Below are positions 28,996 through 44,783 of a stretch of 44,783 bases of DNA, in pieces (position 1 is the first letter of the stretch; each line of letters begins with the position of its first letter). A program made the position numbers and the translations under genes. The DNA comes from an uncultured bacterium (GTDB taxonomy: Bacteria > DUMJ01): contig CALGNK010000030.1 in NCBI GenBank assembly GCA_937958695.1, forward strand, positions 1 to 44,783. Direction: 5' to 3'. The notes under the pieces were generated by a model, which had not been told where the DNA came from, made no database searches, and worked only from the letters and a program-made list of their open reading frames with translations.

Positions 28996-31204
28996 CAAGT
29001 TTAATCCTCCTTAACCTCAAAGAGTTAGATATCACATTTAGAGAGCTAAGCGCCATTGCTATCTCAGCAATGACTGGATGTAATAATCCTAGTCCTGCTA
29101 TTGGTATAGCGATAACATTATAAAAGAAAGCCCAAAATAGATTTTGCTTTATCTTCTTAAATGTCTCTTTAGAAAGTTTTATAGCTCTTATAATGTTATA
29201 TAAATCGCTATTAATAAGAACTATATCTCCAGATTCTATAGCAATATCAGTTCCACTACCCATAGCTATCCCTACATTTGCCTGTTTAAGGGCAGGTGCA
29301 TCATTTATCCCATCTCCAATCATAGCTATAATCTTTCCTTGCTCTTGCAATCCTTTTATTATACTTACCTTATCTTGAGGGAGTACTTCTGCTATTACTT
29401 GATCTACCTCTAATTTATCTTTCATCGTAGATGCATTACTTTTGCTATCACCTGTAAGTACTATAACTTTTAGACCGAGATTTTTTAAAGATTTTACTAC
29501 ATACCTTGCATTATCCTTAGGTACATCTGAAACCCCAATAACTCCTACTATATCTTGTTCATCTGCTACAAGAACTACGGTAGCTTTATCCTTCTCCAAC
29601 ATCTCTATCGTCTCATAGTAAAGACTTACATTATAGCGGTTTTCTGTTAAAAGATGCTTATTCCCAACTATATAGTCTTTTCCATCTAAGGTAGCAATTA
29701 TTCCCTTACCTGGTATATACCTAAAAGACTCAATTTTTATAGGGGTTACTCCCTTTCTCTTGGCATAGTCAACTATAGCTTTCGCTATTGGATGTTCAGA
29801 GTTATACTCTATAGAACTTACAATTTTTAGAAACTCTTCTATAGTCAATTTCGACCATACATATGATACCTCTGGTCTTCCTAAGGTCAAAGTTCCAGTC
29901 TTATCAAACACTACTGTATCTACATCTTTTAATCTTTCTATCGCTTCTCCCGTTTTAATAAGTATACCTCGCTTTGCCCCAATACCTGTTCCAACCACAA
30001 GAGCGGTTGGGGTAGCCAATCCTAAAGCGCAGGGACAGGCTATTACTAGTGTAGCAATCATAGCAGATATTGCCTGAGATAGAACACTATCTCCAAGCCT
30101 AACCCATGGAAGTAAAAAAGATACCTTCTCTAATATTGATATCCCAAATTGAGGAAATAGAATCCAGAAGAGAAAAACCCCGATAGATATTATTATTATG
30201 GATGGCACAAAGATCCCAGTTATTTTATCTGCTAACTCCTGAACTGGAACCTTACTCTCTTGTACAGATTCTACCAATTTTATTATCTGAGCCAAGAAGG
30301 TATCCTTACCCACCTTGGTTATTCTTACTCTTATTGTTCCTAATTGATTTATTGTAGCACCTATTACACTATCTCCTACAGTCTTTCTTACAGGAATAGA
30401 TTCTCCTGTAACCATAGATTCGTCTACATAGGTATCTCCCTCTATAACAATTCCATCAGAGGGGATCTTTTCTCCTGGTCTTACTATTACAATATCACCC
30501 GTTTGAAGCTCTTCTATTGGAACATCTATCTCCTTGCCGTCTCTAATCACTCTAGCATCTTTAGCACCAAGTTGAATAAGTTCTTTTATAGCATTCGTTG
30601 CCCTGCCCTTAGCTATCGCTTCTAGATATCTTCCCAGTAAGTGAAATGTCATAATCATTGCTCCTATCAAGGCATAGTTCTCTATGTTAAATCCTGAAAT
30701 CTTTAGGATGCCTGTGGCAAGAGAAGAGAGAGTTCCTAAAGCTATAAGAACATCCATCCCAAATGCTAAATGCACCATAGATTTTAACGCTGTTTTTATT
30801 ATATTAAATCCTGCCAAAAGGATTACTGGTAGAGAAAGCGAAATCTGGATGATATCAGAATAGGGAATTATAGTAATCTTAGACATCTCTAAAAGCATAA
30901 GTATGATTCCTGGAATAGTAAAAATAAGAGAATAGAAAAATCTTCTTTTGCAAAAATCTATCCGGCTCTCATCATCTGTTTCTTCTTCAAGCAATTTGTA
31001 CCCAATATTCTCTACTAAATTGGCAATCTCTCTGGTATTGATCTTACTCGAATCATATGTAATTGTTGCCTTCTCTGTAGCTATGTTTACTCTAGCATAT
31101 AAGATTCCGGTTGTCTTATGTAAGTTTTCTTCTATCCTTCTAGCACAACCTGCGCAGGACATACCTTCCACTTTAAATACCTTAGTTACTGTTTTTTGCT
31201 CCAT
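28985..31204 (-). CDS. copA: Copper-exporting P1B-type ATPase CopA
   Basis: Pumps Cu(I) out of the cytoplasm at the expense of ATP. 739 residues: one N-terminal heavy-metal domain with SCAGC (C17, C20), actuator TGES at 267-270, the transmembrane metal site CPC at 390-392, phosphorylated D434 in DKTGTLT, the HP motif in [16 protein letters not shown] hinge, and last-helix motifs FYN and [16 protein letters not shown] (the P1B-1 Cu(I) pattern). AAGGAGGAAG precedes the ATG. It leads the copA-csoR-SHOCT operon. Confidence 0.96.
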
Positions 31205-31220
31205 ATTCTTCCTCCTTCCT

Positions 31221-31261
31221 ATCCCCCACCCGTATATGGGAGGGATTACAAGAACATTATA
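31221..31261 (-). promoter_or_regulatory. copA promoter with probable CsoR operator
   Basis: TATAAT on the minus strand is at 31256-31261, with a weak TAGAAA 17 bases upstream. Just downstream of the expected start lies an imperfect GC-tract inverted repeat, 31221-31246 (plus strand ATCCC...ACCC-GTATAT-GGGAGGGAT). C-tract/G-tract dyads of this kind are characteristic CsoR binding sites, and this one is the only such island in very AT-rich sequence. Confidence 0.6.
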
Positions 31262-31335
31262 ACATAGAAGTTTATAAATTTCTAGTCCTCAAAGTGGAGG
31301 AAAATAAGATTAGTATTTATTTTTTGGCAATTTTA

Positions 31336-31344
31336 TGGTATAAT
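31336..31344 (+). promoter_or_regulatory. Extended -10 promoter of the anchored binding-protein gene
   Basis: TGGTATAAT (31336-31344) is an extended -10 element with perfect TATAAT at 31339-31344. Transcription would start near 31351, four bases before ATG 31355. An upstream in-frame ATG at 31343 overlaps the -10 itself and would not be transcribed. Confidence 0.65.
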
Positions 31345-31354
31345 GGAATCTGCT

Positions 31355-32982
31355 ATGGCAGAGATAAAAAGAGAAACAGATATTATTCCGGAAGATTTTT
31401 GGAATGAACTTTTACCTATTTGTTATAAATATCTAGGCTCCAAGGGTGAAACAGTATTAAATGAAACATTAGAAATCTTAGGCAAGGACAAGAGCAATGT
31501 CACCTTCGGAGACCTCACAGATATATATAATGCCCTTATAAGCAAGCTGATATACCTTGATAAAAGGGCTGACTTTAGGATGGAGCTGTATGACCTTAGA
31601 AGAAGGTACATGGTCCCTCCTGAAGCCATAGAATATAGGCCTAGTAAATTAGAACTATTCTTTAACAGATTGTTCGCTAGGAGAAGCTCAGCCATCTTAA
31701 TAATATTAACCTTAATTATAGCTATAGGTATAGGGCTTTATTATGGGCTTAAGCCTAAGAGTAGTTCTGGTGTAATAAGTGGAAAGTATGACGTAGTCCT
31801 ATGGTCTGGTATTTATTCGAAGAGTATGGAAAAGACGATAAATGAAATAATGGAAAAGTTTGATGAACAGTATAAGCCTTATAAATCTAGACTAGACCTT
31901 CTACCTAGTGGTGGAGACCCTATGGCGGAGATGGGAACTCAGATGAAGATTATGGCAGTATTTGCTGCAGGAGAACCACCAGACATCATATATGGAACAC
32001 AGAATCCTCTATATATAAATGGACCATATCTATTAAAGATACCTAAAGACCAGATTCTGTCGCTAGAATATTTCCCTCAGATATTAAATCAAATAACTTC
32101 CGATGGAGAATACTTCTATTGTTATCCAGTTATGTTATCTCCCAAATTTATAATGATAGGAAATAAGACCCTGGTAGAGGGATTAGGGTATAATTACAAG
32201 AAGATTCAGAAAGAGGGTATAAACTGGGATGATTTTCTAGACCTGGCAAGTAAACTTAAATTAGTCTCCCCTTACCCTATCCTTATAAGTCTAAGAGGAA
32301 GTTCTCTCTTTGATATCTTCTGGATGCTAATGGTAAATAATGGGGCAGGAAAAGCAGTAGAGGATGGAAGATTCCTATGGGATGAGGCAAAGATAGAGGA
32401 GACTCTGAGGTTTTTTGATAGATTGGTTAAAAATGGTATTATTAACCCTACCTTACTTGGAGGCAAAATTTCTACCAATATAGACATATTTAGTGATGGA
32501 AAAGCAGGTATACTTATAGGAAATTATTTAGATTACAAAATGATAGATAACGCTAAAAAAGTAAAACCAGTGATTCTTCCTTTCCCAAATAATCAGGGGA
32601 ATAAGATATCTTCACTTTGGGAGATTTACGGTTATTTCTGCTTTAGACAGAGGGATAATTATAACTTTGACAAGGCTCAAAAAACGCTTCTTCTAGCTAA
32701 GACGTTAGCTGAAAACTCGAGATGGGTCCTAGATATTGGAGGATTACCGGCATCTAGAAATATCTGGAATATTTTAAATCTTCACAAAGAGGAGAATCAT
32801 AGCTTCTTATATAGTTATATAGAAAGTGCAGTTCCTGTAGATATTGACCCCCTATTTACTCAGATAGCTTTTGAAGCCATAAATCCACAGTTAGAAAATA
32901 TAGTTACAGGAAAAACAGATATTAATCAGGCTTTGGAAGGTATAAAAGATAGGTTAGATAAAATCCTGTCTCAGAGTAGAAA

Positions 32983-32986
<4 letters not shown>
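31355..32986 (+). CDS. Membrane-anchored protein: cytoplasmic domain, one TM helix, solute-binding-like ectodomain
   Basis: 543 residues from ATG 31355. Residues 1-110 form a helical, charged cytoplasmic domain that I do not recognise; 111-132 is one transmembrane helix (ILIILTLIIAIGIGLYYGL); the rest resembles family-1 extracellular sugar-binding proteins (YDVVLWSGIY at the first strand, MKIMAVFAAGEPPDIIYGTQ, INWDDFLDLASKL, GKAGILIGNY, LENIVTGKTDINQALEGI). Normal binding proteins have a cleaved signal or lipobox and no cytoplasmic domain; here the receptor is tethered to a possible signalling domain. No ABC permease is adjacent. It overlaps the next gene by 4 bases (ATGA). No Shine-Dalgarno sequence; likely leaderless. 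Confidence 0.72.
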
Positions 32987-35855
<2,869 letters not shown>

Positions 35856-41781: not shown

Positions 41782-43146
41782 ATGAAAAAGTCTATTTGGG
41801 TAGTTATTCTTAGTTTAATTTTGGTGATTGGTATAACAGTTTCTAGCGCTACCGCTGCAGTAGAACTTATATATACCTACTGGGGTAGTCCACTAGAGAG
41901 AGATGCTCAGGCAAAGATGTGTAGAGACTTTGAAAAAGCATATCAGAGTATCTTCCCTGGGATTAAGGTAAAAGATATTTATATACCATCGAACTATGAT
42001 GAAAAGATAAATGCAATGATTGCTGCTGGAGAGCCTCCCCATGTGGCACAGTTAGGAGAAGCTCTTGCCTTAGAGTGGGCTGAAAAGGGCATACTAATGG
42101 ACATATTACCTCTAATAAAACAGGATAAAGATCCTTCTGTACAGATTGAAAATCGTCTCTCTATGACCTGGTACTGGTATGACAAAGGAAAGAAAACAAT
42201 TGGGACAAATCTTGCAGCAGAAGTTATGGTCCTTTGGTATAATAAAGAAATTTTTGATAAAGCAGGAATTCCATATCCAGCATCTAATCCAGAGGCTTGG
42301 ACATGGGAGAAATTCTTAGATACGGCAATAAAACTTACTACTGATAGAAATGGACGACATCCTGGTGACCCTGGATTTGACCCAAGCAATATAGATACCT
42401 TTGGTGTTGCCTTTGGAACTTGGTGGGGACCTATACTTCCATTTATATGGTCTAACGGTGGGGATATCTGTGACTCAGAAGGTAAACGTCCACTGATTAA
42501 TACTCCTGCTTCAGTTGAGGCTATCCAGAAACTGGCAGACCTTATGCTTAAATATCATGTAGCTCCAACACCTACTCAAATGCAAGCCTTCCCTGCACTT
42601 AGGATAGCACTACAGACGAAAAAAGTAGCTATGTATATTGATGGGCAGTGGGCTTTATTAGATCTAGGACAAATGGCAAAAGAGGGTAGAATTAAACTTG
42701 GAGTTGCTCCATTACCAAAACTAAGAAAGCCTGTATGCTTAGAGCTAGGGGCTCCAAATGTTATGTTCACCGCTTCTGCTCAGAAGGCCCTTAAAGAGTC
42801 TTGGGAATTCTATAAATGGACTACTAATAGTGAAAAAGTTATATCTCTTGTAAGAGGCGGTCTCTGGATGCCTCTACAGAAGTGGTACTACACTAATCCC
42901 AAATATATGAACCAGTGGTTAGACCCAGCTGTTCATCCACCAGAATATAAACCTGCGGTTATAGACTATCTATTAAAATATGGTAGGAGAAGTCCTAGTT
43001 ATTATCTAAGAAATTGGGGTAAAATATCAGATATTATGTATCAAGAGTTAACTAATGTATGGCTTGGTAAAGTATCTGCTAAGGTTGCTTGTGATAATAT
43101 AGCAGATAAGATTAAGCCATTACTAGTTGGAAGATACGATAAGTGA
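41782..43146 (+). CDS. Sugar ABC transporter substrate-binding protein (family 1)
   Basis: 454 residues; signal peptide about 1-26 (MKKSIWVVILSLILVIGITV... ending ATAA). The mature part is a two-lobed periplasmic binding fold: LIYTYWGSPLERDAQ, AGEPPHVAQLGEALALEWAEKGILMDI, VMVLWYNKEIFDKAGIPYP, AMYIDGQWALLDLG. It binds a sugar or oligosaccharide of unknown identity. Good ribosome-binding site (AAGGAGGGAG). First structural gene of a CUT1-type uptake operon, separated from the permeases by a stable hairpin. Confidence 0.93.
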   Translation: MKKSIWVVILSLILVIGITVSSATAAVELIYTYWGSPLERDAQAKMCRDFEKAYQSIFPGIKVKDIYIPSNYDEKINAMIAAGEPPHVAQLGEALALEWAEKGILMDILPLIKQDKDPSVQIENRLSMTWYWYDKGKKTIGTNLAAEVMVLWYNKEIFDKAGIPYPASNPEAWTWEKFLDTAIKLTTDRNGRHPGDPGFDPSNIDTFGVAFGTWWGPILPFIWSNGGDICDSEGKRPLINTPASVEAIQKLADLMLKYHVAPTPTQMQAFPALRIALQTKKVAMYIDGQWALLDLGQMAKEGRIKLGVAPLPKLRKPVCLELGAPNVMFTASAQKALKESWEFYKWTTNSEKVISLVRGGLWMPLQKWYYTNPKYMNQWLDPAVHPPEYKPAVIDYLLKYGRRSPSYYLRNWGKISDIMYQELTNVWLGKVSAKVACDNIADKIKPLLVGRYDK

Positions 43147-43153
43147 TAAATAT

Positions 43154-43180
43154 AGGAGCCGGGATTTATTCCTGGCTCCT
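43154..43180 (+). other. Intercistronic hairpin after the binding-protein gene
   Basis: An 11-bp stem (AGGAGCCGGGA / TCCTGGCTCCT, one G-U pair) with a 5-base loop, 8 bases after the stop, followed only by a short TTATTAATTTC. As in malE-malF spacers it probably protects the upstream mRNA or lowers permease expression rather than ending transcription. Confidence 0.7.
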
Positions 43181-43208
43181 TATTAATTTCAAACAAGGGT
43201 GATAAGTA

Positions 43209-44111
43209 ATGAATAGAAACAGGTCTCTTTATAGTAGCGAGGCTAAGTGGGGAATAATATTGGCTCTTCCTGCCATACTAGGTTTTCTCATCTGGACATT
43301 GGGACCTATGATAGCAAGCTTTGTCTTAGGTTTTACTGATTGGAATGTAGTATCTACCCCTCACTTCATAGGTATGGGAAACTTTAAAAAGATGTTTGTT
43401 GAAGATTTTATATTCAAAAAATCCATCTACGCTACTGTGTATTATTCTTTAGGAAGTGTTATAGCTTCTATAGTGTTTGCATTTCTGGTAGCTTTTCTAT
43501 TAAATCAAAAAGTGAAAGGTTTACCATTATTTAGGACCATATTCTATCTACCATCTATTACCCCAGCAATTGCAAGTGCAATGCTTTGGATCTGGCTTTT
43601 TAATCCTGACTTTGGACTATTAAACCAGATACTAAAGAGATTTGGGTTCCCTAGACTCTTATGGATATACGATGAAAAGCAAGTTATCCCTTCTCTCATA
43701 TTTATGAGTATCTGGGGAATGGGTGGGATGATGGTAATATTTTTAGCTGGTCTACAAGGTGTCCCACAAGAACTCTATGAAGCGGTAGAGATAGATGGTG
43801 GAAATTGGTGGCATAGATTTAGATACGTTACTATACCAATGATGACTCCAACGATATTCTTTAACTTAGTTATGGCAATAATAGGAAGCTTTCAGGTCTT
43901 TACTAGTGCTTATATAATGACAAGTGGTGGTCCTAACTATGCAAGTATGTTCTACGTTTACTATATATATCTTTCTGCATTCAGATATGGACAGATGGGT
44001 TATGCATGTGCTCTAGCTATAATATTATTCCTGATAATACTCTCATTTACACTTTTAGTTTTTAAATCATCTCCATATTGGGTCTATTATGAAAGTGCTA
44101 GAAGGAGGTAA
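43209..44111 (+). CDS. Sugar ABC transporter permease (MalF/UgpA type)
   Basis: 300 residues, six transmembrane helices. The EAA loop that contacts the ATPase is YEAVEIDGGNWWHRFRYVTIPMMTP near 190-215 (shown as two parts: EAVEIDGGNWWHRF and YVTIPMMTP). N-terminal region KWGIILALPAILGFLIWTLG is typical of the first CUT1 permease. Works with the downstream permease and an ATPase not encoded beside it. Confidence 0.94.
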   Translation: MNRNRSLYSSEAKWGIILALPAILGFLIWTLGPMIASFVLGFTDWNVVSTPHFIGMGNFKKMFVEDFIFKKSIYATVYYSLGSVIASIVFAFLVAFLLNQKVKGLPLFRTIFYLPSITPAIASAMLWIWLFNPDFGLLNQILKRFGFPRLLWIYDEKQVIPSLIFMSIWGMGGMMVIFLAGLQGVPQELYEAVEIDGGNWWHRFRYVTIPMMTPTIFFNLVMAIIGSFQVFTSAYIMTSGGPNYASMFYVYYIYLSAFRYGQMGYACALAIILFLIILSFTLLVFKSSPYWVYYESARRR

Positions 44112-44116
44112 TAACA

Positions 44117-44783
44117 ATGGCTCTCAGTAAGTCCCTTTCGATAAAGCTTGGTAAAACGATAACATACATAGTCTTAGTAATAGGTTCGTTAATCTTTATG
44201 CTACCATTTATATGGCTTCTTAGAAGCTCATTTATGGAGTTAGGTCAGATATTTATCTTACCTCCAGAGTGGATTCCAAAGCCATTCAGATGGCAGAATT
44301 ATCCAGAGGCATTAACTGCTGCGCCATTTTTGACATACTTTTTAAATACGCTTAAGATATTGATATTTAACGAATCAGGAGTAATATTGACCTCTATTAT
44401 CTGTGCGTATAGTTTTGCAAGATTAAGATGGCCTGGTAGGGATCTTATATTTGCAATACTATTAACGTCTTTGATGCTTCCCTATGCGGTTACTCTTATC
44501 CCAACATTTATACTTTGGAAGATGCTAGGAGCTCTTAATACATTTGTGCCGTTAACAGTGCCAGCCTGGTTTGGTGGAGGAATGTTCTATATATTTCTCC
44601 TAAGGCAGTTTTTCTTAACCATCCCTTATGAATTAGATGAAGCTGCATATATGGATGGTGCCAGTCCATTAAAGGTCCTCTGGAGCGTTGTTGTTCCTCT
44701 TTCTAAGCCTGCTATTATAACAGTAGCAATATTCAACTTTATAGGTGTCTGGAATGACCTATTAGGACCAATAATATATCTCA
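44117..44783 (+). CDS. Sugar ABC transporter permease (MalG/UgpE type), 3' end outside window (partial)
   Basis: Open to the last base; starts ATG 44117 with GGAGG (44104-44108) upstream, 5 bases after the first permease. About 222 residues visible: N-terminal helix (YIVLVIGSLIFMLPFIWLL), SSFMELGQIF, NYPEAL, YFLNTLKI, SFARLRWPGRD, and the EAA loop DEAAYMDGASPLKVLWSVVV. This is the second CUT1 permease. Whether an ATPase or glycosidase follows cannot be seen. Confidence 0.92.
   Translation, partial: MALSKSLSIKLGKTITYIVLVIGSLIFMLPFIWLLRSSFMELGQIFILPPEWIPKPFRWQNYPEALTAAPFLTYFLNTLKILIFNESGVILTSIICAYSFARLRWPGRDLIFAILLTSLMLPYAVTLIPTFILWKMLGALNTFVPLTVPAWFGGGMFYIFLLRQFFLTIPYELDEAAYMDGASPLKVLWSVVVPLSKPAIITVAIFNFIGVWNDLLGPIIYL

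Follow-up and report, generated by a model that had tools for sequence, protein, structure and literature searches.

The window analysed here, a stretch of 44,783 nucleotides from an uncultured bacterium (GTDB lineage Bacteria; DUMJ01), carries on its forward strand an open reading frame at positions 31343-32986 that codes for a protein with an N-terminal domain, a transmembrane (TM) helix and a solute-binding protein (SBP) part, with a product of 543 residues. The conserved start is the ATG at 31355 (MAEIK...), which is kept in all three genomes of the upstream comparison; the ATG further upstream, at 31343, sits within a TATAAT sequence and is absent from the other two genomes. This TATAAT is part of an extended -10-like motif, TGgTATAAT (31336-31344, forward strand), recognized by eye and by its conservation and a resemblance to the consensus only; TATAAT itself is conserved in 3/3 upstream sequences and the preceding G in two of them. 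Between its end and the start codon at 31355 there are 10 bases, a spacing at which the mRNA may be leaderless or nearly so. In a promoter and terminator scan of positions 30900-34100, no terminator-like sites were found and promoter-like sites occurred at chance level. Each of the three genomes examined from the phylum, which belong to one genus, encodes the protein in intact form, at 86% identity, and two of these genomes match the MAG contigs JAOACC010000152.1 and JACIXS010000385.1.

The gene is followed by one for a multi-span membrane protein of the LPG_synthase_TM (flippase-like) family (32983-33966, forward strand; PF03706, E 8.8e-20), a candidate partner of its product. The two genes overlap by four bases (ATGA), and the overlapping order is the same in the other two genomes. 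The remaining neighbors are a divergently oriented gene for a copper-type ATPase and, beyond the LPG_synthase_TM gene, gyrB and gyrA, the ATPase and gyrase genes being named by sequence resemblance. Among the neighbors of the gene there are no two-component genes, and no ABC permease gene lies beside it. A CUT1-type ABC set is located elsewhere in the window (41782-44782) and has its own SBP (41782-43143). The genome, of 2.1 Mb, appears to be very rich in ABC importers (72 BPD_transp_1 matches), and no SLC5 (SSF) match was found in the whole of it.

Within the protein, residues 1-88 (31355-31618, forward strand) form a helical domain, predicted to lie on the cytoplasmic side and folded over about residues 11-88. 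It is followed by a juxtamembrane stretch, residues 89-110 (31619-31684, forward strand), which is modeled with low pLDDT, may contain a short helix at 98-106 and is absent from the stand-alone paralogue described below. A single TM helix is predicted from hydropathy at about residues 111-132 (31685-31750, forward strand): the 19-residue Kyte-Doolittle profile peaks at 2.5 for the segment starting at residue 114 and exceeds 1.6 elsewhere only at residue 309, with a value of 1.61. The rest of the protein, residues 140-543 (31772-32983, forward strand), is a predicted extracytoplasmic ectodomain of the SBP_bac_1 family (PF01547, match at 31826-32587, E 1.8e-13, with a score of 51.6 bits where the cut-off is 26). 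Its nearest solved relatives by sequence are NagB1 (7ehp, E 6e-7) and Lin1841 (5ysb, E 1.9e-6), which suggests a ligand of the oligosaccharide type. SBP_bac_1 is the only family over its Pfam cut-off in the protein, and no output domain was recognized. We infer an N-in/C-out (type II) topology since there is no signal sequence before the N-terminal domain, the paralogue looks soluble and SBPs by their nature act outside; the positive-inside signal is weak, with four K/R before the TM helix and three after it. The anatomy given in the preliminary description is borne out. The two segments that it quoted occur in the frame 31343-32986 where it placed them, and residues 1-110 (31355-31684) are helical and charged, as it stated; they precede the single hydrophobic stretch and contain the helices of the AlphaFold2 (AF2) model, with the folded part limited to about 11-88 and residues 89-110 being the low-confidence juxtamembrane stretch. 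An independently folded domain on the inside that one TM helix connects with a binding fold outside the cell is likewise supported.

The N-terminal domain and its relation to STAC

On the AF2 model, constructed from six sequences, the N-terminal domain is an independently folded domain and not a linker. The model has a pLDDT of 85.6 overall and of about 95 over residues 11-80, and DSSP assigns helices at 13-41, 51-63, and 68-86. Conservation gives the same picture, no other part of the protein being as strongly constrained: dN/dS is 0.022-0.024 for the N-domain vs. 0.062-0.067 for the SBP part (rough values, synonymous sites being near saturation), and identity between species is 91-93% over residues 1-88 vs. 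84-85% over the ectodomain. Furthermore, the same genome encodes a stand-alone paralogue of 89 residues, which is 41% identical to residues 18-90 (E 5.5e-14) and conserved in 3/3 genomes. Together with the intact protein in three genomes at 86% identity, this constraint and the paralogue indicate that the architecture of the reading frame is not due to chance. The paralogue gene (locus L010, 6943-7212, on contig C1 of the same genome) is located between a TPR gene and polysaccharide-export (SLBB/Wzz-like) genes; upstream of it lie tyrS, a phoU-like gene, and pst-like genes, the latter group being named by sequence resemblance.

Sequence-family searches with Pfam and NCBIfam yielded nothing over cut-off for the domain. 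DapH_N was matched on the full protein with E 0.0064 and 17.1 bits, under its cut-off of 27, and the matches to DUF3855, DUF3189, and Costars, which extended over parts of the segment, failed to reach cut-off or looked like chance. Sequence searches of the PDB with the A1 and A4 profiles gave E-values of 0.2 at best and no STAC entry. STAC domains, of which Af1502 from Archaeoglobus fulgidus (5a1q) is the reference structure, are described in excerpts of PMC4834066 as four-helix bundles of 60-90 residues, built of two hairpins with a nine-residue linker and sharing the motif LGPx(x)A between h1 and h2; according to the same excerpts they occur either alone, beside receptors or transporters, or in one chain with an SLC5 domain on one side and a kinase on the other. 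The published STAC region of RpuS from S. fredii has itself no Pfam match at or above cut-off, nor an NCBIfam match that covers the STAC region alone among the 25 matches listed, so that a missing Pfam hit is no argument against a STAC relationship of the window domain.

Fold comparison of the segment alone places Af1502 at the top. Foldseek returned 5a1q as the first match of the window model (probability 0.99, E 0.28, TM 0.63 by target length), the next unrelated match having a probability of 0.20. In VIA the same entry ranked first of 115 chains with Z 6.3, an rmsd of 3.2, and 68 of 68 residues aligned, and for a model of a second, bridging family it again ranked first with Z 7.2, an rmsd of 3.0, and 69 residues, although Z-scores of 6-7 (under 13) may for helical bundles reflect a common arrangement and are not decisive. 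The bridging-family domain is predicted to fold alone (pLDDT 89.3) with helices at 4-16, 18-31, 40-58, and 61-80 and an eight-residue linker at 32-39, which is the two-hairpin layout of STAC. For this model Foldseek gave 5a1q a probability of 0.51-0.54 (E 2.3-2.9), with an unrelated entry higher at 0.66. The window domain, all helical and with about 78-88 residues within the STAC size range, has a linker of nine residues (42-50), but its DSSP helix 13-41 is unbroken where STAC has a hairpin.

The bridging family emerged from a search with the profile of the window domain family (A1), which found the domain in 5 of 386 genomes, including two weak matches outside the genus (G158, E 9.4e-4; G168, E 0.002). 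The latter belongs to family f20, where the domain is present in 48 of 50 genomes, at the N-terminus of long proteins that are probably coiled-coil as judged from the frames read. From their sequences these bridging relatives are probably Thermaceae, likely Thermus. A1 and the 19-row bridging-family alignment (A3) have no sequence in common and match each other with a probability of 94 and E 9.3e-8. As STAC reference we used RpuS of S. fredii NGR234, which adjoins the only SSF match of pNGR234b and is described as an SLC5/STAC kinase in the portion of PMC9100948 consulted; with it, SLC5-kinase reading frames were found in 14 of 386 genomes (18 loci, one fragment dropped, 18 rows including RpuS). 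A search for SLC5-kinase fusions via PF00474 in 153 genomes gave no clear one among the matches listed, and the four regions with long frames fetched from it held no kinase fusion.

In the 1167-column SLC5-kinase alignment, the best local match of A1, A3, and a third profile, A4, is in each case the STAC region, where the LG of the window domain aligns onto the STAC G. Against the STAC alignment of these 18 rows, hhalign scored A1 at 25.3, A3 at 29.0, and A4 at 33.7. The maxima among 200 column shuffles were 17.9, 15.7, and 15.6, respectively, and among 94 windows from other kinase regions 15.7, 13.0, and 12.8, so that the real score was reached in 0/200 and 0/94 cases for each profile; reversed profiles scored 12.3, 11.7, and 10.3. 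The stand-alone paralogue sequences alone reached 26.6 (shuffle maximum 17.3), the three fused sequences alone a marginal 16.5 (shuffle maximum 16.0), and a STAC HMM gave the window domain 0.5 bits. Given the weak score of the fused sequences alone, the link to STAC is transitive, by way of the paralogue on the one hand and the bridging family on the other. The motif LGPx(x)A is absent from the window protein, which has LGSKG, and from the paralogue, which has LGDKT; LG is kept in both, while P and A are lost. In the bridging family, LGPx(x)A is present in 6 of 19 rows, whereas 17 of them show LG followed by A two or three residues on. The exact motif occurs in just one of the 18 SLC5-kinase STAC rows (read from the printed matches), so it is loose in STAC too. 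The N-domain thus looks like a distant, diverged homologue of STAC as far as profiles and models can tell, and we call it STAC-like without filing it as a STAC member, since the stated defining feature of that family, LGPx(x)A, is missing. The preliminary description had been unable to place the domain in a known signaling family: for Pfam and NCBIfam this stands, whereas the profile-profile and predicted-structure searches that it proposed for this segment alone give a STAC match and Af1502 as top fold.

Possible function of the fused protein

Excerpts of the literature leave the role of STAC elusive, as it is termed in print (elusive or unknown; PMC7918813; PMC9100948). In CbrA, STAC is reported to rest under the SLC5 transporter, and a relay of the motions of the latter has been proposed (excerpts of the preprint PMC13022988). 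Deletion of STAC lowered crcZ expression in Pseudomonas putida (excerpts of PMC7096432), and in Pseudomonas fluorescens it had no visible effect on growth (excerpts of PMC5715377). For the window protein we lean, with modest confidence, towards a type II receptor or adaptor, in which the STAC-like domain, the TM helix, and the SBP ectodomain form one chain that is docked inside the cell on a membrane transport protein. The ectodomain would bind a solute outside and close, and the TM and juxtamembrane helices would carry this change inward. There the STAC-like module would be docked on the cytoplasmic face of the transport protein, for which the product of the overlapping LPG_synthase_TM gene is the best candidate, and would couple ligand occupancy to this membrane protein or to a soluble partner. 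Docking, partner, and signaling are all argued by analogy. The preliminary description proposed a one-protein transmembrane receptor, which fits the anatomy; the absence of a recognized output domain favors coupling to another protein over a complete one-chain receptor, and STAC-type domains are regarded as docking or coupling elements.

The SBP_bac_1 fold is of the oligosaccharide-binding type, and the 72 BPD_transp_1 matches offer many possible importers, so the protein might instead be a membrane-held SBP that feeds an ABC importer, its N-domain recruiting it to a permease with no signaling involved. We regard this as unlikely, because no permease is encoded in the gene string, the CUT1-type set of the window has its own SBP, a folded cytoplasmic domain is unnecessary for mere anchoring, and the N-domain is under stronger constraint than the SBP and also occurs in a gene free of any SBP. 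A receptor that signals to a soluble partner rather than to a transporter, for example to the stand-alone paralogue or its TPR neighbor, has a precedent in Af1502/Af1503, where an effector-less receptor comes with a separate, stand-alone STAC protein (excerpts of PMC4834066), and the 89-residue paralogue is encoded next to a TPR protein and to genes for polysaccharide export; its gene is not linked to that of the window protein, however, and this arrangement seems to us rather improbable as well.

Two further explanations concern the nature of the domain. DALI-type scores of the size observed are common among helical bundles, and the searches of Pfam, NCBIfam, and PDB sequences yield chance-level matches such as DapH_N, as would be expected for an unrelated helical domain that resembles STAC in its four-helix arrangement only. 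Against such a coincidence, which we consider quite improbable, stand the in-register agreement with the STAC profile, equaled in 0/200 shuffles and 0/94 windows for three profiles, and the first rank of 5a1q in VIA for two separate models. A linker or membrane-targeting segment that does not fold independently, a profile match to which would according to the preliminary description refute its reading, is a suitable account of residues 89-110 alone, with their low pLDDT; for the region as a whole it is hardly credible in view of the confident predicted fold of residues 11-80, the existence of a stand-alone paralogue, and a purifying selection stronger than elsewhere in the protein.

The window protein shares features with several known systems. 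Af1502 is the top match in fold of its N-domain, and the two are alike in the size of the bundle, in LG at the h1-h2 turn, in the nine residues between the helix ends at 41 and 51, in the existence of stand-alone versions, and in the overlap or coupling of the gene with that of a membrane protein; the window protein differs in having a TM helix and an SBP fused to the domain, in the reduction of the motif to LG, and in the lack of a DSSP break in the first hairpin. With the SLC5/STAC kinases CbrA, CrbS, and RpuS it has in common a cytoplasmic STAC-type domain near the membrane and a profile that aligns in register, but it contains neither SLC5 nor PAS, DHp, or CA, and its domain stands at the N-terminus, ahead of the TM helix, whereas in these kinases STAC follows 13 TM helices. 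Its ectodomain matches SBP_bac_1 over the Pfam cut-off and also matches solved oligosaccharide binders of this family such as NagB1 and Lin1841, yet it is TM-anchored and joined to an inside domain, with no adjoining permease genes, where those proteins are secreted or lipoproteins. Sensors of the BvgS type have an N-terminal SBP-like ectodomain and a kinase as output domain. They share with the window protein the succession of an outside binding fold, a TM helix, and an inside domain, but the window protein has them in reverse order along the chain, and an output domain is not recognized in it. A STAC-SBP fusion was not found in the literature excerpts searched, with the founding STAC paper (Korycinski, 2015) outside their scope, and the fusion may be new.

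Relatives of the domain beside transporters

In the excerpts consulted, STAC is described almost only between SLC5 and kinases or as a stand-alone protein. A STAC-like-SBP fusion in a genome free of SLC5 would separate the function of STAC from SLC5 and from two-component signaling, and the receptor, the stand-alone paralogue, and the overlapping membrane-protein gene would form a small system for studying docking. A broader and still speculative view, to which we give little weight, is that STAC-like modules serve quite generally as adaptors that dock from the cytoplasm on unrelated membrane transport proteins, namely SLC5 and MgtE and, judging from gene neighborhood, Amt, MscS, and LPG_synthase_TM. 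The window protein would then be the minimal one-chain version, in which neither kinase nor SLC5 is involved and an external SBP reports solute occupancy directly to a transporter at its cytoplasmic face. With the long proteins encoded beside MscS and the proteins beside Amt as relatives, the STAC family would be widened past its present definition.

In the bridging family (L025 and L026-L055), a gene for an MscS channel adjoins the domain gene in 28 of 30 loci; in L025 (437-3150), the domain gene starts two bases after that for the MscS-type channel. In two genomes of one class (L024, 1468-3205; L057, 1498-3583), a protein of 249 residues with the domain at its C-terminal end is encoded immediately downstream of a gene for an ammonium transporter (Amt), identified in L024 by PF00909 (E 6.7e-83) and in L057 by resemblance. 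In two further loci, L094 and L095, no transporter was seen adjoining the domain gene. These associations with transporters are suggestive only, as they represent at most a few independent events. A possible roadblock-like reading, made by eye, of the relatives of 224-249 residues (L024, L057, L094, L095) was dropped, as no Pfam family was found for any of the four, and a DUF4388 reading of the neighbor in L024 likewise (E 0.17). For L094 and L095, Pfam recognized neither of the two short proteins, and for a secreted-looking protein of L095 it gave only weak matches below cut-off. The three-gene clusters at these two loci carry the domain twice, in a protein of 224-242 residues and at the N-terminus of a long protein, and also hold a secreted-looking protein with C-terminal hydrophobic stretches.
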